A DNA stretch of 64,000 nucleotides from the NCBI RefSeq assembly GCF_008831285.2, contig NC_045143.1:3791503-3855502 (forward strand), given 5' to 3'. This document shows, one piece after another, positions 14,665 through 62,056 of the stretch. Source of the DNA: Nymphaea colorata. Lineage: Eukaryota > Streptophyta > Magnoliopsida > Nymphaeales > Nymphaeaceae. The position numbers and the translations under genes are program-made. A model generated the notes under the pieces. The model saw only the letters and a program-made list of their open reading frames with translations, did not search any database and had not been told where the DNA came from. Numbering within the stretch: the stretch's first letter is position 1; every line of letters begins with the position of its first letter.

Positions 14665-17600
14665 TTAGCTTCTTGGTAGCCTTGTTTCCTCTGAACTATC
14701 AGAGCCTTCAGTAGCTGGTTTTTTCAGAGCAGAAACATCAGAAGATTCAGTTTCATCACCCACAACTGAGCCATTTCCACTGTTTTCTTGTGATTTGGCA
14801 TAGGCTGAACCATTTGCATCTGATTCTGACGCTTTCGTTGTTTCTGTCACTAATTCTTCCTTTGCCAAAGTAGTGAACTGTGAATCCAGTGAACGAGCAG
14901 CAGCGATCCAACCAAGGACAATCACCAGGAGTATGCCTCCAAGGTAGGGAGTAGAATTAGCAAGAGAACCGAATGTAAGAATCATGAACTGTTGGATCAA
15001 TGCACCGCCAGATTTGCCTAGAGGATTGCAGACCACATCAATTGCAGCTTTTCCTTTCACCTGAAAAAGAAAATAAAAATTTGTAAATGAGAACCAGGAA
15101 GAAAGGATGTACGAGAAAAATGAGAATCAGGATAGCTGGGACAGCAGAATATGGCTGTGGCAGGACCGACCTTAGTTTCGTCATCCAATGGGATATAAGC
15201 CATCTCCTTGCAGGGATCAAATAAGCTGTACTTGGAACTCTTGCTGAAGATGTTTTGCAGAGCACCCACATAGACGGCTGCAAGCAGAGGCGTTAAACCA
15301 AACTGGCCAAGCATAGGAGTCAAAGGTTCACCAAACAGAAGAAGTGAGAAGAATCCAACTCCTGTTAGGAGCAAGACTGTGGGTGTGATCATGGCAGCAA
15401 CACCCCATCCGTATCTACGGAGGATCACCCGGCTGAGTAGCATCATGGTGAAAGTAGCAATTCCTGTGCAGGTTGAGAAGTCACCCATAAAGGATGAGTA
15501 CTCGTTCGGGCTAGGATACTGCAAATTAGAGATAAGAAATCATCAAACAATGAAATCGAGAAGAAAGAAGGCCACTGGATATGCAGGTTTACCTGAGCCT
15601 TGAGCTTTGATTTCCAAGTAACCTCTACAAGGTTGATGCTGATACCATATGCAACAACCAAGGTAGCAAGATCTCTCACATACCTCGATGACAGCAAAAA
15701 TTTCATGCTCTCTCCCACGCCCAATTTGAGTTTTTCCTGCAAATACCAACTCTCAAATTTACATCATCTGTTGCCTGCAACAAGAGGATTTCAACCACAA
15801 TAACTAAAGGTGAAAAAGTACCTTCTTCTTGCGAGCAGCAGGTTTGGGCACAGCTGGGTCAGTCAGAACGAATGTGTTCACACTCCAGTAAATTGCACAT
15901 ATTACAAATCCCAGCAACACTACTATTCCCATCATTCCTCTTAGAGAGATAGCCCAACCATCAACCCCTGGTGGTAAATTTTTGCGAAGGTTTGAGAAAA
16001 ACTTAACAGTGCGGCCGGAGAAAATAAGAGCAATATTTGCACCAAGCCCGAACAGTGGATAGAACTGTTTTGCTTCATCAACAGTGGTAATCTGCAGTGG
16101 ACACCATAGTGAGACCCAAGGAATGGCAAAACTCGAGGAGAAAAATAGCAAGGGCACATTGATATTTGATAGTCAGGATTATGGACAGAAATGGCCTTTT
16201 CACGTTCTTATTATCAGTAAGTTGAATAAGCGAGCCAGATATCATAATTAAACAGAACCAAAGAATAGACCAATTGAAGTAACAGATGATTATTGAATGA
16301 CATTCTAGTGGAGGCTGAAGTCAGATAGTAAACGCTAAATTCTTTTCAAATAAGCAAATCCATGAGGTCAACAGTGTCATGTTGAGTAACACAAAAATTT
16401 TATCATGAATGGCTCAAACATAGTTAAATAACAAGATCTAAGAAATTTATGCACCAGAATGGAATTTAATGAGAATTTTTGTATGTAAAGCATGATATAA
16501 CCCTCCTGTATTAGACTAAGAGTAATTAGCAATGTGATCTTAACTGTCAAAATTCAATAAGCATTTAATAAATAAACACGTTACACATATGTTCAGATCA
16601 CAGCAACAGCTTGTTAAGATCAATACACGAAGTCACGAACTAAGAAAACGCATGCTTAGCCAAGCTTGTCCGAGATATTAATTGGTACATTAAGTGACAG
16701 CTATTCAGTAAAAGCGACTACCCAGACACCATCAGAGCACATGATAAGGGTAGGTACAGGCAAGGGAGGGGAATGGTAGCTTAGACTACCATGTCACCAA
16801 TACGTCAACATGGCAAACTTAACCTAGTTCTGCTAAATGGTCTCTGTTATCGTCAGAACTAAAGGAAGTAAAAGGACAGAGAGACATTGTAGACGAAGGA
16901 TAGGCAAGCTGGGATTAGACAAAAGCCTACTAGCTTATCTCAGCAGAGCCACACGTTGGTACCAAATTTATCGACCCCCTTCAACTCGAACACTCTAAGT
17001 TGAACCCCCTAGAGAGACAAACCGTGAAACAGAGAGAGCAACCAACTCCTAATAGAAACTCTCAACCGAAGTGTCTCTCTTTGGTGCGAGCATGATGGTA
17101 AGAACATCAGTGCAACATAGTCTCGGAAGGTAGAACTAATTGCATAAACCGATTCACCTTAAAATGCAGAGTAAATTAGTTCATCATCTAAGCAATATCA
17201 TCGTTGTCGGAGAGCAGCAACTAAATCTGAATTTCCATCAGCTGAAAAAGGTAAATCATAAAAAAGAAGAAGCAAGCGTTTCAAAGATCGTAAGGCGAGG
17301 TAAATAAAGGGAAAGAAAAACGCAAACCAAAAGGACAGATACCCAAGGAAAAGAATTTTCATGTGTTCGACTAAACAAGGGAACCAAAGGAACCGTCCAG
17401 AAGTCACAAATACATATAAAATTCTTCCTGTATTAAAATAAACAGGGGACACAGAAAACCATTCCAGAAATCAACCTTCAAGGAGTACACCATTTGATAA
17501 CAAGAGTGTCGATTTCTATCAAAACCCACATGAGAATATTATCCCCGTGGCTACTTAAGGTATAAAAGAAGCTGAAAAAAAAATATATATCAAACAGATG

Positions 17601-18389
17601 ATCACAGGCACAAATGTATACCTGATTAGCAAATCCCCAGAAGAGAACAGAGATGACCACGCTACCCCACAACTCGGCCATGACATAGAAGAGGCAGAAG
17701 CTCCAAATCCTAAGAATAGCAATTGGACCAAGGAATCTTGGGCCTAGGGATGCCAGAAGCTTATCAGCCAAAGCTGTTGGATGAATATAGTTGCTAAGAG
17801 GATACAAAACAAAGCCAAACAGCCCGAAGAAAGCAATGAAGGGCAGGATAACAGTATAGAAAAGGGCCTCCTTCGATAGAACATTTGCAAGATTCGCGTA
17901 CAGAATCATGAAAGCAAAGGCCAATGGGAGGTTAACCCAAGTCTTAAGAAATGGGATAATCTCTGCACTGCTGCCTTTGGCTGTCACCACAAGCACATCC
18001 TTGGTGTCCCTAAGAATGGTGTAGTTGAAGAGGATGCAAAAGAACATCAACCCAAGTGGGAGAATCTTCTTCAGCGTGGTAACCTCCACCCCCAAAAATT
18101 TGTTGGCCTTCTGGATACCACTACCACCATCATCAGCAAATACCTCTCCAGCAGATGCTGCTCTGCGAATCTGCAGTCTCCCATCATCCCTGGAGCTCAA
18201 GGGTTGAACCTTTCCTCTGCTTCTGAGTCCTTGCAGGGAGCTTCCAAGCCCTTTGGCTTCAAATGATGGAAGGCTGCATATGGGGAGGTTGGGTCTGAAA
18301 CTGAGCCTAGATTTCAGACTCCTTGACGTCTGGGCTTTTGGGAGTGAAGGTGGACGGGAGAGCCCGTGCCGCTGGATGAGGGCCTCCAT
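14665..18389 (-). CDS. NTT1: Plastid envelope ATP/ADP translocase, intact copy
   Basis: Five exons (18389-17622, 16091-15822, 15736-15593, 15518-15171, 15060-14665) join in phase with GT-AG introns to give 641 residues. It is a nucleotide transporter (NTT/AATP, bacterial/chlamydial-type ADP,ATP carrier, not the mitochondrial type) that exchanges cytosolic ATP for stromal ADP across the inner plastid envelope. Residues 1 to about 95 are Ser/Arg-rich and look like a plastid transit peptide. The core starts GVEVTTLKKILPLGLMFFCILFNYTILRDTKDVLVVTAKGSSAEIIPF-like and has about 11-12 hydrophobic helices. The C-terminal ~60 residues are polar, Ser/Glu-rich. Total length is close to the ~620-630 of family members. 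The gene and its flanks are duplicated at 40.9-49.8 kb, where the copy is broken, so this is the only functional copy in the window. Confidence 0.95.
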
Positions 18390-19884: not shown

Positions 19885-20240
19885 CATAAAGAATTCAAGA
19901 CAATGAGATATGGATCATATATGACCAGTCGATATGAATTATAATGCCAACTTAGCTAGATAGAACTTTGGTATATACTAAAATTGACAGTTGAACCATT
20001 TTTTCAAGGAAAAAAAAATGTTTTTAGGACTTCCAATGCATGAAGATTTGAAGAATCTCAATGTCTAAACTACTGGAATTTTAGAACTTTAAGAACATGT
20101 GCACGAGTCATGGATCAGACAATTCAAATCTGGATTCTGATGATATGGAACGATGGTAGAAACAAATACAAGGAAATAAATATGACAAACCCACAAAAAA
20201 TATCTTGCGTGGAAGAAGTTTCAGAATTCAGCAGGAAAGG

Positions 20241-23815: not shown

Positions 23816-23979
23816 GAGGGGGTTTAGCATAGAGACATCATGGAATGTCTCGTGAATCTACCAAAAAATGGGACAGATTCATAGAACACTAGAGCTAATC
23901 TCTCATGAATATACCCCAATTTTTGGGGCAAATTCGTGAGATACGTGCAAAGTGTTCCTGCTGCCAAACAAACAGTCAC
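23816..23979. mobile_element. Tourist-like (PIF/Harbinger) MITE, copy A
   Basis: A ~164-bp element between TTA trinucleotides. The imperfect terminal inverted repeats are of the G-rich then GTTTG type (left GAGGGGGTTTAGCA, right complement GTGACTGTTTGTTTGGCA). The interior folds back through CTCATGAAT/ATTCGTGAG words. The better-preserved duplicate is at 49159-49320. TIR and TSD both fit Tourist elements. Confidence 0.65.
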
Positions 23980-24710
23980 TTAAGCTGTTACAATGTTGCA
24001 TATAAAGCTACCACACTGAGAACTTTATTTTGTGTTCCATCATCCAAAAACATGTCATCCATATCAGGAAATTGTCTTTCACCATCATAGAAAGGAAATT
24101 GGCCTTGTTAAGTTCCGTTCAGACTCTGGCCCCATTCAGTTTTTACTGAATTCGATTAACTAGATTCTATATAATTGGATTTGCATCCCAAACTCTATTT
24201 TTAAACAAAAAATGAACTTTTATTTGTAATTCGATCAGATCTTTATATCAAGAACGGGTTCATAGTCAACTACGAAACTGCATATGGATTAGTAATTAAG
24301 CTCAAGGCATCTTTACATTTGCTTGATCCATCGCACTTCGTTTATTTTCAAGCTCTTTTTTCTTCTCGCTTCTTGCTAATAAAATATGTTGCCAGATTTG
24401 GACATGGGAGAATCATTTCCATGCGTATAATGGGCCTACGTAGTGACAAATGCAACATGGCCAGTGGCCACCACGTCTACAAGCATACTTGAAAAAACTT
24501 CACTAGATATCAATGGGGACACAGCAAAAATGTATTAAAAAAATCTATTAACGATGATGGGGTTATTCAAATTAACATGATAATAACAGTGACGTTTTAG
24601 CCGTTTAAAATTTGTGACCAAGACTGCTACATAAAGCGACGCCAGACTCCTGTCTGGAATATATTTTAAGAGCTAAAGTCACAGGTCGTGTTGTCCCATA
24701 CATAACATGG

Positions 24711-38044: not shown

Positions 38045-40278
38045 ACTCAGTTGTGCAATCTTTTTCTTTTGTTTTGCCTGTGATTAACTGTCAAGGGTCA
38101 TCGTGGCGTTACTATAATGAGAAGAAGAAAAATCAACTGTGCATGAAAAACGATAATCGCAATTTCTTTGTATCCTGGTGGCTATTGGGGGAATGAGCAG
38201 TCGGAGCTCGAAACCACGCCGACGACAATGATGGCGTCGATCGATTGGAGAACCGGACTTCCGCAGTTTCAGACAAGATCGATGTGCCGTCGATGAGTCA
38301 CATAAGTATAACAGGAGAGAGAGGGGAACCTACTGTCAATGGCAAGCGACCGGCGGCCACGGTCGCTCCTTGCAGGAACGGCGGCGATGGAGGCTCAGCT
38401 GGCTGCTGTCCAGAATAACTGATGCGAAAGGGAGAGGGAGAGGAAAGGACCAGGTGCGATGGGACCGGGAGACTTCCCGTCGTCTATTTTCCTGTCGGGG
38501 GTTAAGCCCTCCTTCCGATCGGGGATGATACGGACGGATCATCGGACATGGATTTTAAATTTTAAGTTTATTAGCATACGGATCAAACGCCAGGCTAACA
38601 AATACGATTACATGCCGTGATTGCTGCAAATAGGGAATCAGTTCAAACTTGAATTCTTATTTTTCAAAAAACCATTTTCTATACTGAATATTTTCTCTTT
38701 CATACTTTGAATAATTAGGTATAAACGTACTTGAAAAGTTGACATTAATTATTATAATTAAATAGTTACTCTGCTAGACCATCTTCTAATCTGCGCGTCA
38801 GCTTCAGATTTGCCTGCTGAAATTAAAAATATATATATTTAAAAATATATAAATTTTTTTTATTAGCATATCAAGTCATGTGAGTCTTCAAAGTTCCTTA
38901 ACAGGATACCTTCCACTTGCATTGTATTCATTAAGCTCCTTAAGGGCAGTCATCCGGCTTTCAGCTCTTTTAACCTTTCATCGTCTTCGTTTATGATTTC
39001 CTGTCAGCAACAATGTCATCATCAGAAACTCATTGCTTCAGTTGAGCGTAAAAAAAAAGAAAAAGGAAAAAAAAAAAGGGTGTACATGTTGCATAACAGC
39101 AGAAGCTAAAGATTCAAAATCAAAATAAAGAACAAGAAAGCCGCATTTCAACAAATAGCACAGTTCAACTTGTTCATAGACCTTTTTTTTCTCTGCTTTG
39201 GATGAACCTATCTTCATTATCAAAGAGTTTCAAATTTCAATCAGTTTAAGTAGAAAATTCCCTATTTTCACAAACAAATAGAAACATGTTTTTCACTCTT
39301 ATTTCTTAATTGCTCCACCGTATCATATCACAAGTTCACAACATTCATCCCAATCAATGTCATTGGCATTAATGCCACCAGCCACAATGTTACCACCATA
39401 ACCATGATCACTACCACGCCACAAACACGTGTTTGGCCTTGCAAAACTCTCATCATCCCTACCATTACCAACTACGGTAAATTTTTAAAAATTTTTAAAA
39501 ACTAAAAACAAATGAAAAATAAAATAACTAAGAAACTAACAATACAAACATAAAAAAATAAGTAGATTTGCAACAAATAAAAAATAAAAAACGAAAAAAA
39601 ATTGTTTGACATTGAAAAACTAAAAAAAAAAAGTAAAAAACACGTAAAAACGCGGTAAAGACGTATTTTTTTCGTTTTTTAGTATTTTTTTTAAAACACT
39701 TTTTTTGAAGTTTTAAATGACCATTTAATTTAGCTCACATTTTTTTCGAGAAAAACGCGCTTTCTATGACCATGACTACAAGTAATGCTGCCACCAGCAC
39801 CACCATCCCATCAACTTCCTTCACCCACCACCATCAGTTTCTGCCACTAGTGCCACCACTACTGCCACACGGTTGGCCACCACCAGTTTAAGCTGTTCCT
39901 TTTCAATTTATGAAACTAAAATGACAAAGTAAACATCATTTGGGGCATTAGTCCATGGCTTTTCTAAATGATCCTATATGCATGTGCTATTCTTATAAAG
40001 CTACTTGCAAATATAGGTTTTGAGTCATTTACAAGGTTAGAACTTTTTCATCATTTACGAAGTCTAAACAGCATTGAACTAAAGCAGTGGAACTGTGGAA
40101 CTCTATAGTTTGACAAAATAACAAAAAATGTCACGTAAATAAAACTTTTGCTAACCCTCGCATCTACTAACTACCACTTTTATAGTATTTCAAGAAAAGA
40201 ATAAACCTTTCATAAATTTGAAGTCCAACTTACAAACATAAAAATTGGAAATAAGGCCAACATGAACAATCTCTAATA
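38045..40278. repeat. Decayed direct duplicate of the FDM 3' region
   Basis: Aligns in the same orientation with about 52540-55235. Shared landmarks are GTGATTAAC...CGTTA.TATAATGAGA near 38080-38125 (52565-52625), the FDM last-exon remnant at about 38888-38999, the CAATGTTACCACCATAACC-type Thr/His-codon-like stretch near 39390, and AAGCTACTTGCAAATATAGG near 40000 (54885). The exon remnant has lost 27 or so internal bases and its stop end. A ~700-bp GC-richer block (about 38170-38880) has no match in the FDM copy, and no gene is recognised in it. Confidence 0.85.
38888..38999 (-). pseudogene. FDM last-exon (XH domain) remnant
   Basis: The minus strand carries EIINEDDERLKELKAG, then after an internal deletion ALKELNEYNASGRYPVKEL. 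This matches the C-terminal XH segment of the intact FDM gene (53078-52851). The segment between AG and the next Thr/Ala codons (about 27 bp) is missing, and so is the 3' end with the stop. The splice acceptor CTGACAG is retained. Non-functional. Confidence 0.85.
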
Positions 40279-40833
40279 CAAGCAGAATTTGAAGGTAAAA
40301 ATAGAGAAGTTGAAAGGAAAAATACAAATGATGGAGCATATGGAAGGTGATGATGTTAGAGACAAAATAGAATCCACTAGGACCATGCTAGAGGAAAAAG
40401 AGACTGAGCTGGATGACTTGGATCAATTGAATATCACCCTCTTAGCTAAAGAGCGGATTGCAAATGATGAATTACAAGAGGCCCGAAAAGAAATAAAACC
40501 TATATGGATCGCTCTCCTTTTCTTTTGCATAATGTTATTGAAGAGAAAGAGCGATGTATCAAAATATTTAAGCATAGTAACAATATGCGAAAAAAAACAG
40601 AGCGATTCATATAACTATTATTTTTTCTGGCCTCTTGTAATTCATCATTTGCAATCTGCTCTTTGGCTAAGAGGGTGTTATTCAATTGATCCAAGTCATC
40701 CAGCTCCGTTTTTTTTTCCTCTAGCAGGGTCCTCATGGACTCCATTTTGTCTTTAACATCATCACCTTCCATATGCTCCAACATTTGTAATTTTCCTTTC
40801 AACTTCTCTATCTCTACCTCCAAATTCTGCTTG
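40279..40833. repeat. Inverted repeat of an FDM coiled-coil exon (foldback)
   Basis: Arm A (about 40279-40540) reads NL-KVKIEKLKGKIQMMEHMEGDD on the + strand. Arm B (about 40578-40833) reads NLEVEIEKLKGKLQMLEHMEGDD on the - strand. Both continue to NDELQEARK and some intron sequence. Both match exon 4 of the intact FDM gene (55948-55670). Arms are about 90 percent identical over the exon part by eye, with a loop near 37 bp. Each arm keeps an open frame. A transcript across this region would fold into a ~260-bp hairpin. Arm B is in the gene's orientation; arm A is inverted relative to it. Confidence 0.93.
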
Positions 40834-40881
40834 TCCTCCAGCTTCTTTTACATATCAAGAACCTTCTTATCATTTCCACAA

Positions 40882-43800
40882 ATGAGCCATTTCCACTGTT
40901 TTCTTGTGATTTGGCATAGGCTGAACCATTTGCATCTGATTCTGATGCTTTCTTTGTTTCTGTCACTAATTCTTCCTTTGCCAAAGTAGTGAACTGTGAA
41001 TCCAGAGAACGAGCAGCAGCGATCCAACCAAGGACAATCACCAGGAGTATGCCTCCAAGGTAGGGAGTAGAATTAGCAAGAGAACTGAATGTAAGAATCA
41101 TGAACTGTTGGATCAATGCATCGCCAGATTTGAATAGAGGATTGCAGATCACATCAATTGCAGCTTTTCCTTTCACCTGAAAAAGAAAATAAAAATTTGT
41201 AAATGAGAACTAGGAAGAAAGGATGTAAGAGAAAAATGCTGATACCATATGCAACAACCAAGGTAGCAAGATCTCTCACATACCTCGATGACAGCAAAAA
41301 ATTTCATACTCTCTCCCACACCAAATTTGAGGTTTTCCTGCAAATACCAACTCTCAAATTTGCATCATCTGTTGCCTGCAACAAGAAGATTTCAACCACA
41401 ATAACTAAAGGTGAAAAGTACCTTATTCTTGCGAGCAGCAGGTTTCGGCACAGCTGGGTCAGTCAGAACGAATGTGTTCACACTCCAGTAAATTGCACAT
41501 ATTACAAATCCCAGCAACACTTTCCCATCATTCCTCTTAGAGAGATAGCCCAACCATCAACCCCCGGTGGTAAATTTTTGTGAAGCTTTGAGAAAAACTT
41601 AACAGTGCGGCCGGAGAAAATAAGAGCAACATTCGCACCAAGCCCAAACAGTGGATAGAACTGTTTTGCTTCATCAACAGTGGTAATCTGCAGTGGACAC
41701 CATAGTGAGACCCAAGGAATGGCAAAACTCAAGGAGAAAATTAGTAAGGGCACATTGATATTTGATAGACAGGATTATGGACAGCAATGGCCTTTTCACG
41801 TTCTTATTATCAGTAAGTTGAATCAGTGAGCCAGATATCATAATCAAACAGAACTAAAGAACAGACCAATTCAAGTAACAGATGATTATTGAATGACATT
41901 CTAGTGGAGGCTGAAGTCAGAGAGTAAACGCTAAATTCTTTTCAAATAAGCAAATCCATGAGGCCAACAGTGTCGAGTAACACAAAAATTTTATCATGAA
42001 TGGCTCAAACATAGTTAAATAACAAGATCTAAGAAATTTATGCACCAGAATGGACTTCAAAGAGAATTTTTGTATGTAAAGCATGATATAACCCTCCTGT
42101 TGTAAGACTAACAGTAATTAGCAAAGTGATCTTCACTGTCAAAATTCAATAAGCATTTAATAAATAAACACATATGTTCAGATCACAGCAACAGCTTGTT
42201 AAGATCAATACACGAAGTCACGAACTAAGAAAACGCATGCTTAGCCAAGCTTGTCCGAGATATTAATTGGTACATTAAGTGACAGCTATTCAGTAAAAGC
42301 GACTACCCAGACACCATCAGAGCACATGATAAGGGTAGGTACAGGCAAGGGAGGGGAATGGTAGCTTAGACTACCATGTCACCAATACGTCAACATGGAA
42401 AACTTAACCAAGTTGTGCTAAATGGTCTCTGTTTTCATCAGAAATAAAGTAAAAGGACAGAGAAACATTGTAGACGAAGGATAGCCATCTGGGTTTAGAC
42501 AAAAGCCTACTAGCTTATCTCAACAGAGGCATACGTTGGTACCAAATTTATCGAACTCCCTTCAACTCGAACACACTAAGTTGAACCCCCTGGAGAGACA
42601 AACCGTGAAACAGAGAGAGCAACCAGCTCCTAATAGAAACTCTCAACCGAAGTGTCTCTTTTTGGTGCGAGCATGATGGTAAGAACATCAATGCAACATA
42701 GTCTCGGAAGGTAGAACTGATTGCATAAACCGATTCACCTTAAAATGCAGAATAAATTAGTTCATCATCTAAGCAATACCATCCTTGTCGGAGAGCAGCA
42801 ACTAAATCTGAATTTCCATCAGCTGAAAAAGGTAAATCATAAAACAAAAGAAGCAAGCGTTTCAAAGATCGCAAGGCAAGGTAAATAAAGGGAAAGAGAA
42901 ACGCAAACCAAAAGCACAGATACCCAAGGAAAAAAAATTTCAAATATTCGATTAAACAAGGGAACCAAAGGAACCGTCCAGGAGTCACAAATTCATATAC
43001 AAGTCTTCATGTATTAAAATAAAAAGGGGAAACAGAGAACCATTCTAGAAATCAACCTTCAAGGAGTCCACTAATTGATAACGAGAGTGTCGATTTCTAT
43101 CAAAACCCACACGAGAATATTATCCCCGTGGCTACTTAAGGTATAAAAGAAGCTGAAAAAAAAAATATCAAACAGATGATCACACGCACAAATGTATACC
43201 TGATTAGCAAACCCCCAAAAGAGAACAGAGATGACCACGCTACACCACAGCTCGGCCATGACATAGAAGAGGCAGAAGCTCCAAAACCTAAGAATAGCAA
43301 TTGGACCAAGGAATCTTGGGCCTAGGGATGCCAGAAGCTTATCAGCCAAAGCTGTTGGATGAATATAGTTGTTAAGAGGATACAAAACAAAGCCAAACAG
43401 CCCGAAGAAAGCAATGAAGGGCAGGATAACAGTATAGAAAAGGGCCTCCTTCGACAGAACATTTGCAAGATTTGTGTACAGAATCTTGAAAGCAATGGCC
43501 AAAGGGAGGTTAACCCAAGTCTTAAGAAATGGGATAATCTCTGCACTGCTGCCTTTGGCTGTCACCACAAGCACATCCTTGGTGTCCCTAAGAATGGTGT
43601 AGTTGAAGAGGATGCAAAAGAACATCAACCCAAGTGGGAGAATCTTCTTCAGCGTGGTAACCTCCACCCCCAAAAATTTGTTGGCCTTCTGGATACCGCT
43701 ACCACCATCATCAGCAAATGCCTCACCAGCAGATGCTGCTCTGCAAATCTGCAGTCTCCCATCATTCCTGGAGCTCAAGGGTTGAACCTTTATTCTGCTT

Positions 43801-43967
43801 CTGAGTCCTTGCAGGGAGCTTCCAAGCCCTTTGGCTCCAAATGATGGAAGGCTGCATATGGGGAGGTTGGGTCTTAAACTGAGCCTAGATTTCAGACTCC
43901 TTGACGTCTGGGTTTTTAGGAGTGAAGGTGGACAGGAGAGCCCATGCCGCTGGATGAGGGCCTCCAT
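40882..43967 (-). pseudogene. Plastid ATP/ADP translocase pseudogene, duplicate of the NTT at 14665-18389
   Basis: Exon 1 (43967-43200) is still open and full length but has 15 amino-acid changes from the intact copy, including G242C and M161K. Exon 2 (41687-41422) has lost 4 bp near 41520, shifting the frame. Exon 3 survives only as 41337-41239, carrying one extra A. A 516-bp deletion (equivalent to 15123-15638 of the intact copy) has removed the rest of exon 3, intron 3, all of exon 4 and part of intron 4. The last exon begins at 41176 but is cut at about 40882 by the FDM-derived inverted repeat, losing the last ~33 codons and the stop. It cannot encode a transporter. A truncated transcript from its duplicated promoter is possible. 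Confidence 0.95.
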
Positions 43968-44587
43968 CGTCTGTGGAGAGATAGACCAGGCAGAAGCAGA
44001 ATTGCAGAGAGATAAGACAGACTTAAATATTGGGTTTTTGATGAAGGAGAGGATGGTAAATGAAAGTAATGATCCATTAGACCAGGTGATGACACTAAAA
44101 AATTGTGTTTATGGAAGGAAGAAATCCAATCAACAGCAAGATGCGATTTTTAAAGTCCACAAACAGTTCAACGGGCCTTCTCTGACTCACACACAGAGAG
44201 AGAGAGAGAGGGGTTGGTGGCTCCACAATATAGAATTGATTTATGAGAAAAATTGGGAGCTAAGAATTTTTGGTTAATGACTAGCCTGTCTTTTCCTTTT
44301 GCAACCACAGATATTCTTCTCCATTGGTTATGTTGGCCCATTGTTTCACCAAAAATGTTGTGTTTCATACCAAATTAGTATATTCACAAATCACAACCTT
44401 CAAACACACTTTGATAGCATGGCACCTTGCATCATTGGGGAAAAATTAGATTTTCGATTTTACAATGAGTATCAGACCAGTGTGGATATCGGATATGAGT
44501 ATGTATCAACAGATATGCATTAGATAGTCTGCAACCATTTAATCTTGTACCGGTTGATATTTCAATGAAAATATAATAGTGTTTCAT
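43968..44587. other. Duplicated 5' flank of the NTT pseudogene
   Basis: Close match to 18390-19065. It contains the equivalent of the NTT 5' UTR and promoter, plus a short (GA)n at about 44190-44212. The match ends at the transposon insertion. Confidence 0.7.
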
Positions 44588-44590
44588 TTA

Positions 44591-47609
<3,019 letters not shown>

Positions 47610-47737
47610 TTAAGAAAAAAAAATCCATGAAAATTGATAATCGTTTTGGTTGTTGATACAAGTTCCTCAGGAGCCCAGACCGAAGCTGTTCAGATAGGTA
47701 TCTGCTTTAACTGATCCAATCTGGTCCAAATCTGAAA

Positions 47738-47835
47738 AAGGGGATCCAAGTCTAGGAAAAGGAGATCCATATCTGAGAAAAGGGGATCCAAATCTGAGAA
47801 AAGGGGATCCAAATCTGAGAATAGGGGATCCAATT
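47738..47835. repeat. ~24-bp minisatellite, about five units
   Basis: Units of the type GGGGATCCAAATCTGAGAAA are repeated about five times. The equivalent site in copy A (about 19197-19245) has only about two units, so the array expanded after the duplication. Confidence 0.88.
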
Positions 47836-48210
47836 GAACCGGACCCAATAATATCTGGATCTAACCCATTTCTTATATACTTTGTCGCAGTGAACGATTC
47901 CCGCCCGTGATATCTTTTTTTTGGACTCATCTTATTAAAAAAGGGTATCTTCTCCGCTTTATAAACAAGTGGCCAGTGGGCCCTTAAAAAATTTTACCAC
48001 CATGCACTGACGCTGAAAGAAGTTGATATTTTTCTCCTTTTCCTTTCAAAATATCTCCTGTTCAAACGCCAAGGTCCATAGGCTAAATTTGGATCTGAAT
48101 CTATTTAGATGTGATTTGGCGGAGCATCGAGTACCCAATTTTAATTAGGTTCAGCATAGTCTTCTAACATGGATCCAAATCCAGTTCCGTGTAGATTTTG
48201 AGCCATATAA

Positions 48211-48449
48211 GGTGTGTTTTGATAGTCCTCCGATTTAAGATTTGAGGTGATTTGAGATCACTGGAATCTCAAATACGAGGATTCGAGGTTGGACTGCCCT
48301 CAAATCTGAGGTTTTCGCCATAATCTAAAGATTTCAAAACTTTTTTCATATAGTGGTAAAGTTCGGCGTTTGTTTACACTCCGAGTCTCATAAAAGGGAG
48401 GGACTTCAGATCAATTTTAAATCTAAGATGCAAGACTATCAAACACACC
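48211..48449. mobile_element. MITE with 16-bp-type TIRs, copy B
   Basis: The 239-bp duplicate partner of the element at 19648-19884, with one T inserted in the left terminal repeat (GGTGTGTTTTGATAGTC). Confidence 0.8.
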
Positions 48450-49158
48450 CATAAAGAATTCAAGACGATGAGATATGGATCATATATGACCAGTCGATAT
48501 GAATTATAACGCGAACTTAGCTAGATAAACCTTTGGTATATACTAAAATTGACAGTTGAACCATTTTTTCAAGGAAAAAAACATGTTTTTAGGACTTCCA
48601 ATGCATGAAGATTTGAAGAATCTCAATGTCTAAACTACCGGAATTTTAGAACTTTAAAAAGCATGTGCACGAGTTATGGACCGGACAATCCAGATCTGGA
48701 TTCGGATGATATGGAACGATGGTAGGAACAAATACAAAGAAAGAAATATGACAAACCCACAAAAAATATCTTGCGTCGAAGAAGTTTCAGAATTCAGCAG
48801 GAAAGTTTTTTTCCTATGGAAGGTCCTACTTATGAAGCACAAAATTTTTCAAGTCTCACTTTTGCCCTTATTAGGGAAAAACCTTTCATTCAACCAGCAG
48901 GAGCATTTTGGTCATAACACATTGTCCCTTGTTGAGGACTACATATATAACCTGCTCTGATCAAGCACCACCAAAATGAACCCTTTTGCGTGTGCTTTGC
49001 ATGCATGGCTCATGCTTGCTAAAAGCTTGAGTTTCCGACTCAACTCATATTGTAAACTTGTTGCTGTTTTTAAACTCAAACAAAGTTTTCGAGAGAACGG
49101 CGGGTTTTGGCAGTAAGAAGTTGTCCCTCCATCAAAGTTGAATCGAGATGTACCTTTA

Positions 49159-49320
49159 GAGGGTGTTTGACATCAGAGACATTATGGAATGTCTCATGAA
49201 TCTGCCAAAAAAATAAGATAGATTCATAGAACACTAGAACTAATCTCTCATGAATATACCCCAACTTTTGAGGCAAGTTCGTGAGATACATGCAAAGTGT
49301 CCCTGCTGCCAAACAGTCCC
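49159..49320. mobile_element. Tourist-like MITE, copy B
   Basis: A 162-bp element flanked by TTA at 49156-49158 and 49321-49323. The ends are GAGGGTGTTTGACA and, on the other strand, GGGACTGTTTGGCA. It is the better-preserved partner of 23816-23979. Confidence 0.7.
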
Positions 49321-49786
49321 TTAAGCTATTACGATGTTGCTCGCAAAACTGCCAAACTAAGAACTTTATTTTGTGTTCCATCATCCATATCCGGAAATTG
49401 TCTTTCACCATCATAGAAAGGAAATTGGCCTTGTTAAGTTCCGTTCAGACTCTGGCCCTATTCAGTTTTTACTGAATTCGATTAACTAGATTCTATATAA
49501 TTGGATTTGCATCTCAAACTCTACTTTTAAACGAAAAATCAACCTTTATTTGTAATTCGATAAGATCTTTATATCAAGAACGGGTTCATATTCAACTACG
49601 AAACTGCATATGGATTAGTAATAAGCTTAAGACATCTTTGCCAGATCCGACTGAACAAATCAGTAACACCATATGTTTGATTCATTTGTATAACCAAATA
49701 CAGGAATGTCAAATAATTCAGAAACATCTAAAAGAAAGTCACCTTTCGTCTACATTTGCTTGATCCATCGCACTTCGTTTATTTTC

Positions 49787-50788
49787 AAACAAACTAATAT
49801 GCTAAGAGCATTAATTAAGCACTAGTATGCTAAGCGCATTAATTAAGCACTACTATGCTAATCGCATTAACTGGATAGTATGCAGAAATTTCAAATGTTG
49901 ACATTTTCCAAAATTAATTTGATTGGATCTATGTATAATATGTTAGCTAGCTTTTCGTATGTAATGGAGTTAGCTAAGCACTAGTATGCTAAGCGCATTA
50001 ATTAAGCACTAGTATGCTAAGCGCATTAATTGGATAGTATGGAGAAATTTCAAATGTAGAGATTTTCCAAAATTAATTTGATTGGATCTATGTATAATAT
50101 GTTAGCTAGCTTTTCATATGTAATGGAGTTAGCTAAGCAAGTATGCTAAGCGCATTAATTAAGCACTAGCATGCTAAGTGCATTAATTGGATAGTATGCA
50201 GAAATTTCAAATGTAGACATTTTCCAAAATTAATTTGATTGGATCTATGTATAATATGTTAGCTAGCTTTTCGTATGTAATGGAGTTAGCTAAGCACTAG
50301 TATGCTAAGCGCATTAATTGGAAAATGTCCACATTTGAAATTTCTGCATACTATCCAATTAATGCGCTTAGCATACTAGTGCTTAATTAATGCTCTTAGC
50401 ATACTAGTGCTTAATTAATGCGCTTAGCATACTAGTGCTTAGCTAACTCCATTACATACGAAAAGCTAGCTAACATATTATACATAGACCCAATCAAATT
50501 AATTTTGGAAAATGTCTACATTTGAAATTTCTGCATACTATCCAATTAATGCGCTTAGCATACTAGTGCTTAATTAATGCTCTTAGCATACTAGTGCTTA
50601 GCTAACTCCATTACATACGAAAAGCTAGCTAACATATTATACATAGATCCAATCAAATTAATTTTGGAAAATGTCAACATTTGAAATTTCTGCATACTAT
50701 CCAGTTAATGCGATTAGCATAGTAGTGCTTAATTAATGCGCTTAGCATACTAGTGCTTAATTAATGCGCTTAGCATATTAGTTTGTTT
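49787..50788. mobile_element. 1-kb foldback element built of tandem modules
   Basis: Left and right halves are inverted copies, meeting near 50320. The ends are AAACAAACTAATATGCTAAG and its complement. Each arm (~460-530 bp) is a series of ~190-bp modules (GGATAGTATGCAGAAATTTC ... GTAATGGAGTTAGCTAAGCA) separated by 28-bp spacers of the type ACTAGTATGCTAAGCGCATT. Arms are almost identical, so it is young or gene-converted. It has no coding capacity. It lies exactly at the end of the segmental duplication. No target duplication could be defined. Foldback (FB-like) elements have this architecture. Confidence 0.9.
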
Positions 50789-52850: not shown

Positions 52851-55800
52851 TCATTTCTTGCGCTTATGCAACTTGCAGGACTTGATGAGGTGCTGGGCAG
52901 CCTCCTTCAAGCTGGCTTTTCTCCCAGCTTTGAAGTTCCAAAGTTCTTTAACAGGATACCTTCCACTTGCATTGTATTCATTAAGCTCCTTAAGGGCAGT
53001 CACCACGGCTTCATATATGCCTTCGCCACATCCGGCTTTCAGCTCTTTTAACCTTTCATCGTCATCATTTATGATTTCCTGTCAGCAACAATTTCATCAT
53101 CAGAAACTCATTGCTTCAGTTGGGCGTAAAAAAAAAAAAAAAAAAAGGTGTACATGTTGCAGAACAGCACAAGCTAATTACATGCAACTGAATCTTTCGA
53201 AAGAAAAATAAAGAACAAGAAAGCCCCATTTCAACAAATAGCGCGGTTCCACTTTTTTATAGACATTTTTTCTCTGCTTTGGATGAGCCTATCTTCATTA
53301 TCGAAGAATTTCAAGTTTCAATCAATTTAAGTAGAAACTTCCTTATTTTCACAAACAAATAGAAACATGTTTTTCCACTCCTATTTCTTAATTACTCCAC
53401 ACCGTATCATATCACAAGTTCACAACATTCACCCCAATCAATGTTACTGGCATTAATGCCACCAGCCACATCATGATGTTACCACCATAACCATGATCAT
53501 TACCGCCAGTAACACTACTGCTGCCACCATCATCTCTACCATTACCATCAAACTCTCAGACACCATTACTACAAGTAGTCAAGTACTGCTGCCACCAGCA
53601 CCACCATCCCATCAACTACCTTCAACCACCACCATGTCAGTTTCTGCCACCACTACTGCCAGCCACCACCAGTGCCACACGGCCCACACCACCCCCCACC
53701 CCCCAACCCAAAAAAGAGAAATTGCCATGACTGTTCACTATCCAACACCATAAACCATCCAGTTACAACATATTCTATGTAGCATAGTATTTGTGTCAAC
53801 CGTAATTCACAACCAATAGGAAATCTCACTCACTGAAGCATATCAGTTAGAGAAATTCCATGATATTTTTACCATTTTTGTCTCTGTAATTTTTTTAATA
53901 TGACTTTTCCCTTGAGATTAACGTAAGTATAATACACAGATTAGAAACTTACGAGGTGCAGAATAAAAAAGAAAACTACTTTACTAGGTTAATAGTGATG
54001 ATCTTTGTTATTCCTTCATCTTCCCACCACCAAACACTTTCTTAGGGTACCGAAGATGTGTGTGCATGTGTAAGACAGAGAGAGAGGGAAACAAAGACAG
54101 AGAGACTAAAATAACATTGAAAATGCCCAATGAACAGTTGAGACCAAGACCACAGTACATGAGAAAAGAGAGGAAGGAGAGAGAAAGAGAAGGTAAGAAA
54201 CAAAATAGTGCTAAGCTGAATAATAACTCAAAAATTTTACCATTAGGACAATGCAATGGCTGTGATGTGGATTCGACTAGTTTTTGACTAATTTCATAAG
54301 GACATCAGACCAAAACATGCCCGACAACCAAGAAAATATTACAACTAAACTTGCATAAAATTTTAAAAACATTGTCGTATCAATTCCTATATACAGTAAA
54401 AATTTAACCAAATAATTTTCACAAGCATCTTCACAGCTTATTCACATTCATGGTTGATGAAATATGTGCATTAAGTAAATATAAAAGATTTACGAGTCAT
54501 TTAAACAGCCTGATTGATGGTTTACAAGGTGCTACATGCAAAACTACTAAAATGAATGACAATTTGGACTTTCATAGTTTCATTATACCATATGAAAGAA
54601 CGAGCAAATTATTGCAAACTAGATCCAAAGATCTCAAAACATGAAAATCCACTGCCATGTCTTATCATTTATTATTGTATGCATTTTCAATAATGATAGA
54701 AATAGCGATGGTAGTCAGACCCGTTAACAATCTAGAAGCCAAAAGAAGAATGCGATAAAAAATTTTCATTTTTAAGCCGTTCATTTTCAATTTATGAAAC
54801 AAAAATGACAAAGTAAACATCATTTTGGGCATTAGTCCATAGCTTTTCAAAATGATACTCATATGCATGTGCTATTCTTATAAAGCTACTTGCAAATATA
54901 GGTTTTGAGTCATTTATAAGGTATGAACTTTTTCATCATTTATGAAGTATAAACAGCATACTGGTGAACTAAAGCGATGGAACTGTATAGTTTGACAAAA
55001 TAACAAAAAATGTCACGTAAATAAAACTTTTGCTTACCCTCAGGAGAAGTTTTAATTATATTTATAAATGAATGGTTAAAATATTACTGAAAAAGGAGAA
55101 AAAAAACTTTTCGCATCTACTACTACCACTTTTATAATATTTCAAGAAAAGAATAAACCTTTTATAAATTTGAAGTCCTACTTCAACAAACATAAAAATT
55201 CAAAATAGGGCCAACAAGAACAATCTCCAAACTCCATACCTTACAGTTGTCTCCATCTTGGACCACTTTGAAGGGGAACCAATTTGGATCTCGCAATGAA
55301 GCATCCCATGAAGAGGCCATTTCCACTGCTTTGATTTCATAATCCTTGGGATACTTTTTCTTGCATTCCTCTTTGAAGGCCTTCGAATCAAGCTCACCCA
55401 TTCGTTTAACTCCAATATGACCACGATTGCTAAATAACTCATCAAAACCCTACAATAGCAGCAACTTTGACTTAAGAGATGGTCCAACAAAAGTTTCAGA
55501 CAATGTGTAGCTTACACAAAACCAACCAGAAAATGAACTATAAATCTATAGATAAAAGCAGTACCAACTCAGACTTCAGTAGAGCATAGGATAATGAAGA
55601 GAAATAGCGATGTACCAAAATATCTAAGCAAAATAACAATATGCAAAAGAAAATGAGAGTGATCCATACAGCTATTATTTCTTTTCGGGCCTCTTGTAAC
55701 TCATCATTTGTAATCCGCTCCTTGGCTAAGAGGGTGGTATTCAATTGATCCAAGTCATCCAGCTCAGCTTCTTTTTCCTCTAGCAGGGTCCTCAATGATT

Positions 55801-58800
55801 CAATTTTGTTACTATCATCACCACCTTCCATATGCTCCACCATTTGTATTTTTCCTTTTAGCTTCTCTATCTCTACCTCCAAATTTTGCTTGCCCTCCAA
55901 CTTCTTTTGCATATCAAGAACCATCCGGTGTGCTTCCTCTTTCTCTCTCTGCACATTTAATAAACACTATTTAGCCCATACTCAATTTTTGTATAAAGAG
56001 CAATAGATTTTGTTAAACTAAACTATGCATCAAAAATTTTCAATAGAGAGAAGCTTTCATAGACCTTATGATCCTCCAATAGCTTCATTAAATTTTCATC
56101 GGTCTTCTTCTGCTCCATACTGGCAGCTTGAAGATCAGCATCTCTGGCAGCATACTAGAAATATGGAAATTTAACATAGTAAGCTAACATGTACACATTT
56201 TAGAAGACACCTCATCCATTATGCACGTATACAGTACCAAGAAAAGACAGGTCATAAAAACATGAAATTCAGATACCCATTAAAAAACAGCTACGCATCA
56301 CCAGACATTGTGAAATGCTGAAAGAAAAAGTTACAACGATTTGATCCTCACAACAGCCTATAAAACAGTTCATACAAGAGGCAGTTGGGATTATAAAAGA
56401 GTTTATGCAAGTAGACAGAAAATTAATAATACAGCATGTCAAAAATACTGTTTTGTAAGTAATGAAATTCAAATCCATGACTTTTTGCTCATTTCAATTT
56501 TCATGCTATACCCATAGAACATAGTAGTAGATGTACTTGGGATTCATATTCTAAAAATAATCAAGAAGTATAAACCATGTATCATCAACGAAAGACTTTC
56601 TTCAAAGTCATTTCCGACAAAACTCCCAGTTTGTGAAGTGATGGAGGTGACATACATGGACACTGGAGTTTTTCCCTAACATGAACACCAAAATTATGAT
56701 GGCTCTAGCACAAAATGTAATTACAAACCAAAATGCTGACGTGTAAGTAGGTCAAACTTGTAAATAATGCATTGTCCAGGATTACAAATAGATTGATGGA
56801 CAGAAGCTCTAGGCACATCTGATACTATTGGTTAACGTTAGAAGTTCTTGATAAAGGCACATTTAGTGGCATCCTGCATGAAAACTGAATTGATTACTCA
56901 TATTTAAATCAAGATTTATGTGCAATGCTATTCTCGTAAGTCACATGTAACAAAAAATGTTCTACCCAAAAGTTCAAAATGTGAAAGTTTGTGATATATA
57001 ATGACAATAATGAGCACTACAAACTACAAAGCCTCAATGACTCAACTTGGAATTTTTCAGATTTATGCAGAAACAACGATCAAACTAAAGCCATCAAGGA
57101 TCAACAATGTGGAAGCACTGTGCAAGATGATTATTAACCATGTATACATGCAGCAGCATTGTAGATAGTGTGCTATATTTTACAATTTGTTATGGAATGT
57201 GACCTACTGTGAAAACCAATATGCTACACCCTGAAACTAGTTTCAAGAGTGCACTGTGCGTGTAAAACCTCATAAGATATGGTGCAACATGTTTTGAGTC
57301 ATGCAATACTGACCTGGTGGCGAAAAGGGAACCAAACCCCCCTTTCTTATTTTGAGCTTTGCGGGCACCTCATACTTGATTTCAACACATGTTGGAGTTC
57401 ATTTGTGCATTTGAGGATAAAGACACTGTTTTTAAAAGTCAATTTTGTGCATAGGAGACTTATTTTTGTTAAAGACCCAGGTTTTTCGCATTTTTCAGCA
57501 TCCAAGGACCACAGCATAAATGTTTGACTGTTACTGTAGTTCTTTCAACCAGAAGATCTAATGACCCTACATATGAAGACCATCAGACAGTCATGTTTAA
57601 ATTTTAGAAGGACTGCAACATGCTTTTATTTGCAATCAGCAACCAAAGGATGGAAGTTCATATGTTCAAGTTACACTTCATTAGCACCATGACAACAGCT
57701 TATGTTATGCCCCATGCATTTACATAAAAAAGCCACCCGATTTTTGTATATGATTCATATAGGAATTCATGCAGAGAAGAATATAGATTCCAATTGGCAA
57801 CCCCACAAATCATTGTTTCCATCTCCAAAAATACACTAAGGAAATCTGATTGCCTCTGATTCTCAAAATGAAGATGTTTCACCAACATCAGTTATATGAC
57901 CATCGCATCAAAAGGAATTAGTGGAGAGAGAGAACATAGTGGAATAGAAAAAACTGGCAAAACAGAAGAACCTAGTGAAGCCATCAGGTTGTTACTGCAA
58001 CTACATATTGGCTCTTACTTTGAGCAGTAAAAAAGCCTTGCTATTAGGAATTTTCTTTGCATGGGACTTTATGGTTACTATACAAGGCTTGTTAAATTGG
58101 TGTTTCATGGTTGTCACCTGTTACATTCTTGTGTAACTTATATTCAGGCAATTCATGTCTTCCTATAGGTAACTATTTCTTATGTTTTCATTATTTTTTG
58201 TAATTTTCTCAATGATTTTCAGTACTTTTTCAAGAAATTTTGATACGTTAGAAAAAAAAAATTATTATGATTTTTTATGTTATGTTGCAAATCTAATTAT
58301 GGTTCTGATTAATAGACATTATAATACAAACCTTATGGCATTTCCCAGCTGTCATAAGGCAAAGTTTTATTTGTCAAGCCACATAAAACTATGTAGCAAT
58401 AGCATAATCCTCCTGAAAGAAGGAAGGGGAGGCAAGGAAGGAAGGAGGGACTAGGGAGGGAGAGAAGGACAGAAGGAAAAAAGTATTTTTGTACCTTGAC
58501 GCCCCATTTTTTCCCCCTTTCTCTCCAGAAAATGCTTGAGATCCCTGGCCAAATCTTAATACTGAACTTGGTGTGGAACCTAACACTACCTAGAAAGGTA
58601 TGAATATTGTGTGCAGCTGCTTCCCTGTCAGCCTAATGGCAGAAGAATAATTGTGCATCCATTACACAAGTACCAATGATGTGCCTAAATGGAGACTAGA
58701 CCTAATGGTTATGACTTCACAAACTAAAAGGCCTCCTGGCTTAGAAAAGGGAAAGACAAAAAAGGGTCTGGATTTTCTAACAGTGGATTGAAAGAAACAA

Positions 58801-61800
58801 AAGGTATGTCAGAGCTCTGGAGGATGTTAGAGATCACATTATAAAATCTGAGATTCTGAACATGAATTTTCATTGAAGGGACAGTTTTTAATGATATAAA
58901 TGAATCTATAATGTACTTATACTGGTCCTATCTTCTTTCCAGTCTTCATTTGTATAGAGTAACTCCTCGATAACTGTTTTTTACCTTTTCAACAGATGCT
59001 TAAATTCCTGTCACAGAAACAGGAATTACACTTAAATTTGGCACCTATCTGATAGACTTAAAACTTAAAAGAATCCTGTGCCATTAGATTGCCAGTCTGT
59101 GACGTCATACATATGGATACTACAAAATGTGCTATTTTATTGCTTGTTGCTTGATAAACAAACTGAAAAAAGAAACCCCACTGACATGCCACAACAGGAA
59201 ACTCTAGCAAATGATTTTTACAAACTGGAAACTAATGAAAGATGAACATGGGCAAAGAATAACAAATTTTCATCAGTGGCTCCAGACAAAGTTCATTGAA
59301 CAACTTTGAAAGCTTACACAAAACAAAAAACCTAAGCACCAATTTAAAACAGGCAAAACTTCAAAGGCCTTACAATGCCAATGGTATGAACTATAAACCA
59401 AGTGCTCGATCGCAAGTGGAACCATGCCCCATTGAACCAGACAAGCACAAGCAAGCAAAAGATGCATACAAACCATAGAATACTGAAACTATGAGTGAGG
59501 CAGTTGACAAACCTGTTTCTTTTCATCTTCAAATTTTTTCTTCTCGTAATCATTTTGTGCTTCCTGTTTCAGCAACTCCTTTTGGCGACTTGCTAGTTCT
59601 TTCTTTTCCTTTTCTAATTCTAAGCGACATGTCTCACGCTCCTGAAGAACTTCCATCCACAAAGCATGCTGCCTTCTTTGTGAATTCCTCATTTCTGACA
59701 AGATGAGCACAAAAGCACAATAATTTTAGAAATAGTTTAGAGACAAGTATAAATAGGAAGACTAATGGAACTCCCAAATAAAGCTTCAGAATACTTCTAT
59801 TAAACCACATATCAAGAATAGCCGTCTTCACTTAAAATTGAGAGCAATTTTAACATACTTCCCATATGAAAAATATTCACCATGAAAATGATTGTTCTAT
59901 ATAAACAGGCATTACTTTGCTGTTCGTGTTACAACACACTCAGTTTTCTCAACACATACAACAAATCGACATAGAAAAACTTCTAATAATCCTCTCACCT
60001 GTGATAATAGAAATTTTTTGTAGTTCAATCAAGTGAGGCAGTATGAGTTCCAAAAGACCAGAGAAAAAACAGCAAAAACAGAATTTCTTAAAACAAAGAA
60101 CTCACATGCTACTTGCACATGTACCACCATATAGGTACATGTGCATAATTCTCTGCTGGGACTAAGGGTGATTAACCTCTATGCAGACTAAATTATACTT
60201 TTCTAACATTATTATATCTATATGGGCTGTCTTCAAGCCTTGGAACTATTCACATATAAAGAGTTCTAACAGGCACCATCACCATTAACGGCAGTCACAC
60301 ACTACTATCCTCAGCGGATGTTCATAGAAAAGGGTGAGTCACATTCTTCCACAGAAAGATCAAAGTTCAACTGCAATATACAAAGATTAAGCTTTAAAAC
60401 CAAATGAATAACAATGGATGGAAGAGGTTGTGCATGCACGATTGCAATCAAAAGTCATCCAATCGAAATGCATATATGTGTTAGAATTTTTTAGAGCACT
60501 TCAAAGTTCAAGCCTATATTCGTCATTTGAATCTTTCTCACGGATATATTAACTAGATGAAGCTAAATCAATAATAAATTTGAACGAGTGATCAACCAAA
60601 GAGTTTTTCACTATAGCAACACATTCATAAAAAATTGACTACCCCACATGTGTCACAACGATAGAATCTAACATGGACATGGCAAATTCATCCCCAGGAC
60701 ATGTTTTGGGTTGGGTCTGGGTCAGACCTGATCCAGATCACATTAAATCCTTTATCTTTTCAACAAAATGCATGCATTTTTTGTGGGATTTTGTATCTAT
60801 GTATGGACATATATATACATATAACACTTACTTCAAAATGCATTAAACCCTTCTTTTTCACAAAATGAAAAAATTTTTATGCTATATATCCCCATTTGCA
60901 CATTTTCTAGAGTCGTACCCAAACCCATGCGACCTACCATAGAATGGAGTATACAGAGGCAAAAGAATGGAAAATATATCCACGATAAAGAGTCCAACAC
61001 CACTAGCATAAAGAAGTATCACAGAAAGTGCAGTAGTGCATCAACCTCCATGTAAGTGAAAAAGAAAAAATAAGAAAAACTCATGCAGATGAAAGGAAAA
61101 TAAAAAGGTAGACATATGGAATAACCTTCATTATATTGGTCCATTAACCTGGCCATATCGCTTTCCTTTTCTTCGAGAGAAGCCTTAGTCTGCTCCAGTA
61201 CATACGTAACCTCCTTCAGCCGCATCCCAGATGATTCCAAATCCTTGTTCTTTAAATCTATTTGTTCTTTAAGCCCATCAACAAGGATATCTTTCTTTCG
61301 CTTCTCCTCATCTTCGAGCTCAGTAACAGTTCTGAGATCACCATGCTTCCGCAGATGCTCCCTTATACACCTATCAACACTGTTGTAGTCATCCTCACGA
61401 GCCATCCACCCATACATTCTTGACCCGTGCCCTTGGAATTCTATCCATTCTTTTTTCCCATGATGATCCACCTGAAAAGACCGCTCAAACGAATTCGCAG
61501 CGTGATACCCACTCCACTCCTTGTTAAATTCTAAAATGGCCGTCCCCCGGAAGCCCTTATAATCCCACAGTGGATAAGCTCTTACGGGATTGAACCAAGC
61601 AAACTCCTCTTTCAATCTAGAAGCAGTCGCAAAGTGTTTCCCATCCTTCCCCTTGGCCTGGATATTCACAACGATTCCCATCCAAGGCCAAACAAAACGC
61701 TCCTCCTCAGCGTCCTTTTTGAAACGTTTGGATGATGGAGCAGATCTCGGAAATGAAGGGGTAATAGAAGGTCCAGGCTTCTCTACAAAATCCAACTGCA

Positions 61801-62056
61801 AGAACTTCGCCAGTGCTCGATGCTTCGCAGTTTCCTTTAATCTCTTGTTGGAGTTTCCAACTCCTGTTGCATGCTGAAGAAGATCCTTGTATTTGTAATC
61901 TTGTTTCTTCCTCCCAAGGCAGTAGGGGCACCTAAGGAAGCCATCAGAGCTCCCAGTGAAGACATTCTTCTCCTTCAATTCCTTATATAACTTTTCCACT
62001 CGCTCTTCGATTTCCCCCTCACTAAAATCACTGCAATCATCTGAACCAGACGACAT
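52851..62056 (-). CDS. FDM1: XS/XH-domain factor of RNA-directed DNA methylation (FDM/IDN2 family)
   Basis: Six coding exons (62056-61126, 59694-59513, 56154-56065, 55948-55670, 55449-55240, 53078-52851) join in phase to 639 residues, normal for the family. Domains in order: zinc-finger-XS (about 43-82, C43PYC46 and LLQH62), XS RNA-binding domain (about 121-232, WPWMGIVVNI to YGWMAREDDYNSVD), long Lys/Glu coiled coil (about 245-490), XH domain (about 495-637, GFDELF.NRGHIGVKRMGELD and YPVKELWNFK). FDM and IDN2 proteins form complexes that bind double-stranded RNA and are needed for DRM2-dependent DNA methylation guided by Pol V transcripts. The subgroup (FDM1 versus FDM2-5) is not certain, so the symbol is provisional. 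The 3' region and exon 4 have duplicated relics at 38-41 kb. A 5'-UTR intron (62933-62081) likely links the start to an exon in the tandem array. Confidence 0.94.

Follow-up and report, generated by a model that had tools for sequence, protein, structure and literature searches.

An ageing inverted repeat of an IDN2/FDM-like exon at a probable tandem-duplication junction in Nymphaea colorata

The locus and its genes

The DNA considered here is a 64,000-nucleotide stretch of the Nymphaea colorata genome, referred to as the window (C6:3791503-3855502 in the 407.8-Mb assembly used for the genome searches). It holds an intact plastid ADP/ATP translocase gene and an intact IDN2/FDM-like gene (FDM), and between them lie partial, rearranged duplicates of both. 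The features that matter for what follows are these, in window positions:

14668..18389, minus strand: intact plastid ADP/ATP translocase gene (641-aa database protein, P0241)
38889..40276, minus strand: remainder of the truncated FDM duplicate, comprising parts of intron 5 and disrupted remains of exon 6; exon 5 is absent
40279..40539, plus strand: left arm of the inverted repeat, an inverted FDM exon 4 (to ~40501) and the start of intron 4, from self-alignment
40540..40569, no strand: loop between the arms, ~30-40 nt by RNA folding
40536..40866, minus strand: right arm, what is left of exon 4 in the truncated FDM duplicate with the intron 4 sequence next to it, in parent orientation
40865..40876, no strand: junction of the translocase last exon with FDM exon 4 through ~12 nt of filler, from block matches
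40876..44590, minus strand: plastid ADP/ATP translocase pseudogene (NTT'), from block matches
44591..47609, minus strand: 3-kb insert on the upstream side of NTT', with terminal inverted repeats of 15 bp and TTA as its target duplication
47610..49639, minus strand: duplicated upstream region of the translocase, from block matches
52851..62056, minus strand: intact IDN2/FDM-like parent gene, six exons, 639 aa; exon 4 is 55948-55670

The protein of the parent gene is 100% identical, over its full length, to the N. colorata 'protein INVOLVED IN DE NOVO 2-like' (P0001), and of the features that define the IDN2/FDM family (zf-XS, XS, coiled coil, XH) the three Pfam domains zf-XS, XS and XH score above their cut-offs. 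On these grounds the gene is of the IDN2/FDM type that acts in RNA-directed DNA methylation (RdDM), as a first-pass annotation of the window had supposed. PMC7544125 places the action of IDN2 at a late step of RdDM, on the Pol V scaffold. Given that a near-full-length paralogue lies at C6:0.24 Mb (~50% identity over the first exon, both XH exons open) and an additional XH half at C6:0.254 Mb, the parent is not the sole member of its family.

Two blocks of the window recur between the intact genes. The translocase with its upstream DNA (14760-24314) matches 40876-49639 in four pieces (14760-15122, 15636-19068, 19066-20239 and 23457-24314), and the 3' part of FDM (52939-55925) matches 38889-40866 in five; both genes are complete on the outer side of the duplicated blocks and cut on the inner side. 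In gene direction the order is NTT', the filler, exon 4 with intron 4 as far as parent position 55592, the inverted exon (55632 to 55892) and intron 5 from 55230. The joins, which by eye share 0-1 bp, would fit template switching, or end joining that took in an inverted insert of local origin. On the simplest reading, each gene was broken once in a local tandem duplication, and the inverted repeat lies where its two units meet.

NTT' has no match to residues ~385-509 of the intact protein (a deletion of ~0.5 kb) nor from residue 611 on, and its exon 2 carries a 4-nt frameshift. GT/AG is kept at the sites checked (the first donor, the acceptor and donor of exon 2 and the acceptor of exon 3), and ~620 bp of contiguous upstream sequence is retained. 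The 3-kb insert sits ~620 bp upstream of the NTT' start codon. Its terminal inverted repeats and TTA target duplication are like those of PIF/Harbinger elements, and its coding pieces resemble casein kinase 2 alpha in motif; the insert is possibly a gene-capturing DNA transposon in the pseudogene's upstream region. It gives one weak Pkinase match, below the cut-off.

The copies in the window are related as such a duplication would suggest, albeit unevenly. In 1101 columns compared among four copies, 15 sites join the truncated FDM to the intact gene, while the two other groupings have 7 and 3. The K2P distance between the translocase copies is 0.031 in the last exon, 0.046 in the body, 0.054 in the near upstream and 0.091 in the far upstream region, and that between the FDM copies is 0.070, 0.099 and 0.071, with 0.142 in the right arm. 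A single event predicts equal divergence, but the FDM copies differ more, and gene conversion, constraint or separate events must consequently be assumed. Likewise, the middles of the blocks lack a match (24.35-38.89 against 49.79-52.94 kb), so that later insertions or losses have to be assumed. No named protein corresponds to the fused pseudogene among the best 120 of 2884 matches, and just one translocase protein named as N. colorata is found among the same 120.

Elsewhere in the genome a 2.7-kb translocase piece occurs at five places. The idea that translocase copies also adjoin other copies of FDM was rejected, the nearest, at C6:2.972 Mb, being more than 170 kb from an FDM copy. C6:2972346-2972906 holds a solitary 0.56-kb stretch of translocase-region DNA that shares 93% identity with the pseudogene copy. 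Other repeats of the window include a near-perfect palindrome at 49787-50788 (353-nt arms, 98%), built of 159-bp tandem units and both longer and more alike in its arms than the exon 4 inverted repeat, and a tandem repeat at 62881-64000 with 4.2 copies of a 266-bp unit that reaches the window end.

Anatomy and folding of the inverted repeat

Self-comparison of the window returned a single palindromic alignment, of 40278-40834 with its own reverse. The left arm (40279-40539) corresponds to parent 55892-55632, inverted, at 88.5% identity and is antisense when the locus is read on the minus strand; the right arm (40536-40866) corresponds to parent 55592-55925 in the parent's orientation at 87.1% and carries an in-frame stop and a 2-nt deletion. 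With their inner parts included, the arms pair over 40279-40539 and ~40570-40833, and the best ungapped arms are 225 nt long, 89% complementary and 133 nt apart. Identical ungapped columns number 230/258 between the two arms, 226/258 between parent and right arm and 231/261 between parent and left arm.

A 621-nt RNA spanning the repeat folds at -375.9 kcal/mol on the minus strand (shuffle mean -146.1, z -40.1) and at -369.7 kcal/mol on the plus strand (z -33.4), with 0/20 shuffles equally stable in either case. The stem has ~240 pairs, and its longest unbroken helices, G-U pairs counted, are 44 and 49 bp. The long inverted repeat with a stable stem that is expected of a hairpin-siRNA locus is thus present, and so are the arms from a coding gene, still intact in the genome, that are expected of a gene-derived inverted duplication able to act on its parent.

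Alignment and folding together confirm the head-to-head exon 4 hairpin that the first-pass annotation had described at 40279..40833, and its loop of ~37 bp and its distance of 14.8 kb from the intact exon were also correct. What the annotation had not seen is that the right arm is the exon 4 remnant of a truncated FDM duplicate and hence part of a block duplication.

Other copies of FDM exons 3 and 4

The left arm has at least 29 matches in the genome. The 29 listed comprise 13 in an array at C6:10.994-11.005 Mb (L011, L012; 1762-bp period, one strand), 6 on one strand at C1:10.717-10.722 Mb (L013) and 10 others on C2, C6 and C10, the window's own three included, and among them only the window locus has close copies that face each other. 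Both arrays repeat a stretch of exon 3, intron 3 and exon 4, which is found as a single copy at C2:26.672 Mb (L016). A 431-base piece of the array spacer holds a short dispersed repeat of many chromosomes, with at least 42 matches (40/77 candidates scored). The arrays are a possible separate source of siRNAs, or possibly an unrecognised repeat family built on a fragment of an RdDM gene. BLAST suggested an edge common to the right arm and the arrays (parent 55586-55592), but the arrays extend further and the parent lacks a few bases there, and the edge was put down to coincidence.

A further FDM copy, at C6:3.147 Mb (L009), carries a direct duplication of part of its exon 4. Two database fragments of N. 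colorata, P0002 (exon 1) and P0122 (XH part), may derive from such FDM copies.

Divergence of the arms

Differences between the arms were polarised with four other genomic copies, namely those on C10 and at C6:3.147 Mb and one from each array. Among 43 variable columns of 258, the left arm has 10 changes of its own, the right arm 11 and the parent 14; 1 is derived in both arms, 2 are shared by parent and left arm, and 5 are three-way or ambiguous. The flanks of the truncated copy, with the right-arm segment left out, have 33 changes of their own in 770 columns (4.3%). As these rates are similar, divergence of the arms began at roughly the time of the duplication and has kept approximate pace with the pseudogene DNA around them; the dating of both is relative only. 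The proposal that the arms are sister copies made long after the duplication finds little support: they share a derived state at just 1 column of 258, against 14 changes in the parent alone.

Nor do the changes themselves bear a mark of maintenance. Exonic changes of one arm fall on codon positions 4/2/4 in the left arm and 4/3/2 in the right. The arm differences do not favour retention of G-U pairs in the putative transcript either, since one-arm transitions that keep such pairing number 8 on the minus strand and 9 on the plus strand. As to a possible deamination footprint of past methylation, C-to-T or G-to-A accounts for 11/24 one-arm changes and the reverse for 6/24, figures that stand without a polarised control. 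Pairing conserved beyond neutral drift, the hallmark of a maintained regulatory hairpin, is not seen in these comparisons, and the drift of the arms argues against a hairpin under selection, as far as sequence comparison can tell. A conserved stem segment was likewise rejected: the 28-nt stretch that is identical in both arms and the parent is at chance level, as 19% of random placements of the 43 variable sites leave a run of this length.

The position of the parent is less straightforward. A tree of 25 copies leaves the relationships of the arms ambiguous, and by raw identity the arms are nearer the C6:3.147-Mb copy (90.0% and 90.7%) than the parent (88.5% and 87.6%), which we attribute to faster change in the parent, although origin from another copy gives the same pattern. 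Exon 4 and intron 3 of the parent (55670-56064) differ from two agreeing copies at 27/395 columns, against 178/4666 in the other parts of the gene that were compared (Fisher p 0.007, for a contrast picked post hoc, with polarisation by further copies confined to the exon 4 part), and the ratio of parent-only to truncated-copy-only changes is 17:14 in the right-arm segment and 15:33 elsewhere (p 0.06). Escape from siRNAs could yield this excess. The exon 4 differences of the parent from the agreeing copies comprise 11 nonsynonymous and 7 synonymous changes, a ratio of ~0.4, which is no mark of positive selection.

Transcription, targeting and the sign of a feedback

The hairpin lies directly downstream of NTT' and in the same orientation, NTT' ending in the sense arm. 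An NTT' transcript would run straight into the hairpin, and NTT' is thus a possible driver of it. Transcription of the hairpin, which the first-pass annotation had allowed for, is accordingly possible in view of this co-oriented remnant with its upstream sequence and checked splice sites. Polyadenylation-like hexamers on the minus strand between 41200 and 38800 occur at 40622, at 39729 and further on.

To score targeting, a simple miRNA-style scheme was devised in which a 21-mer passes at 3 or below with no central mismatch. Against the FDM mRNA, 121 of 241 21-mers of the left arm and 139 of 277 of the right arm pass, 15 in each arm matching exactly; five simple shuffles of the left arm gave 0/1205 21-mers with a score of 3 or below. 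The longest exact matches are 30 nt (left arm) and 28 nt (right arm). By this simple score the stem is complementary enough to target the parent's mRNA, and siRNAs from the hairpin could be directed against FDM.

The consequences of such targeting for its own maintenance may be judged from hairpin transgenes. In Arabidopsis, PMC9263138 (section 8) reports that ordinary hairpin transgenes silenced in 84-100% of lines in nrpd1a and ago4, compared with 57-65% in wild type, and that the inverted repeat's own methylation was retained in those tests; that section includes no IDN2/FDM mutant. Since hairpin silencing was more uniform in RdDM mutants, lower RdDM would not simply relieve it, and the sign would be the opposite of that proposed. 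In nrpd1a, however, PDS silencing was weaker per line and the target gene less methylated (PMC9263138, same portion of the paper), and RdDM thus contributes to part of the hairpin effect. The abstract of PMC9263138 describes hairpin transgenes with mismatches or G:U pairs that silence stably and avoid self-silencing, and the 11% mismatch of the arms is therefore no bar to siRNA production.

Comparison with known systems

Rearranged copies that face each other, as here, are known from Arabidopsis PAI, soybean CHS (the I locus) and maize Mu killer. Those duplications are long, their copies nearly identical, and siRNAs or methylation have been demonstrated for them, whereas the hairpin arms here are 89% identical and the locus is known from its sequence alone. 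Young MIRNA loci are reportedly born by inverted duplication of their target genes (Allen et al. 2004). They resemble the present locus in having fold-back arms of a coding gene downstream of a possible promoter, and drift and death is 'perhaps most common' of their three fates according to PMC1790633. In contrast to them, the stem here is of ~240 pairs with no segment conserved beyond chance.

The nearest precedent is an inverted pseudogene pair of rice, which likewise consists of two facing pseudogene copies of a coding gene. According to PMC2708354 its arms are 83% identical over 185 nt and yield strand-biased small RNAs, with none detected from the parent gene. It differs from the present locus in its loop (1283 nt against ~30-40 nt here), and here the repeat lies on a gene-fusion junction, has an RdDM parent and was recognised in genomic DNA only. 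The Tpd1 hairpin of teosinte pollen drive is similarly a natural non-coding hairpin with gene-targeting siRNAs, in a system that includes the silencing gene Dcl2; its target is a pollen lipase, for which 22-nt siRNAs and cleavage products are shown in PMC11390486, while the putative target here is a gene of the methylation machinery itself. Tpd1 demonstrates how much such a locus can matter. Among the titles that literature searches listed, none was a small-RNA study of N. colorata and none concerned the hairpin locus.

Origin and possible function

With a probability of roughly two in three, the inverted repeat is a hairpin pseudogene that arose where the units of a local tandem duplication join and has since aged, a by-product on the path of decay and not a feedback device. 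As the anatomy records, duplication took in a block with the translocase and the 3' portion of FDM, presumably in a single event, and its internal junction would have joined a 3'-truncated translocase to a 5'-truncated FDM copy. At about that time, to judge from the divergence of the arms, exon 4 would have been copied back in inverted orientation beside itself and exon 5 lost, as might be expected of a template switch, or of end joining in which the repair brought in an inverted fragment from close by. A transcript begun in the translocase remnant would then pass through the sense arm, the loop and the antisense arm and yield double-stranded RNA, a substrate for Dicer-like enzymes; siRNAs possibly cut from it would be directed chiefly at the hairpin locus, with a weak effect on FDM. 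As far as the data reach, the two arms appear to have diverged like unconstrained DNA and the hairpin is not visibly maintained, for which reason it is most likely a by-product. Counted against this account are the unequal divergence of the translocase and FDM copies, the closeness of the arms to the C6:3.147-Mb copy, the exon 4-intron 3 excess of the parent and the unmatched middles of the blocks, as well as a hairpin that is still very stable and of which half the 21-mers score as FDM-targeting.

An active hairpin-siRNA locus, in which NTT' is transcribed and the hairpin gives rise to 21-24-nt siRNAs that lower FDM mRNA or methylate its exon 4, is a tentative alternative and on the whole unlikely. 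The great stability of the hairpin, the passing and exact 21-mers, the co-oriented gene remnant upstream and the stable silencing by mismatched and G:U hairpin transgenes (PMC9263138) all speak for activity, yet the arms give no sign of maintenance, the insert lies close upstream of NTT' and transcription is still hypothetical. In a wider version, the non-coding copies of the RdDM gene, that is, the hairpin together with the exon 3-4 arrays at two other chromosome regions, would feed siRNAs against the intact gene, and the rapid change of its exon 4 would mark its escape from them. As hairpins can silence in the absence of Pol IV or AGO4, that loop would be self-reinforcing (bistable) and no negative feedback; we regard it as a long shot. 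The first-pass annotation had gone further and read the repeat as a negative feedback on RdDM or a sensor of its dosage. Its structure, parentage and possible transcription stand, but regulation of this kind is unsupported and highly improbable. In its favour are a parent of the IDN2/FDM type, IDN2 being an RdDM factor at the Pol V scaffold (PMC7544125), and the reduced methylation of target genes when ordinary hairpins act in a Pol IV mutant; against it, changes accumulate in the arms about as fast as in the local pseudogene DNA and show no leaning towards preserved pairing, a near-full-length paralogue is present, and the persistent, more uniform silencing in nrpd1a and ago4 makes the proposed sign doubtful (PMC9263138, in the sections cited above).

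The stem of a MIRNA gene is usually far shorter than the present one. A proto-microRNA, in which one stem duplex is kept while the rest decays, could point to the 28 nt identical in both arms and the parent, but such a run is common in random placements and a search of the window gave 0 Rfam families at the gathering score, so little credence can be given to it. Finally, palindromes are common artefacts of long-read assembly, and the fold-back kind gives identical arms. As the arms here differ at 28/258 columns, each with changes of its own, and the outer flanks also differ, an artefact is very unlikely indeed.

Implications

If active, the locus would be a natural case in which RNA silencing is turned on a component of the RdDM machinery. 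If silent, it would be a clear example, in an early-diverging angiosperm, of hairpin loci that arise at duplication junctions and then decay, and of a gene fusion by which an inverted repeat came to lie downstream of a remnant gene when the repeat arose or soon thereafter.
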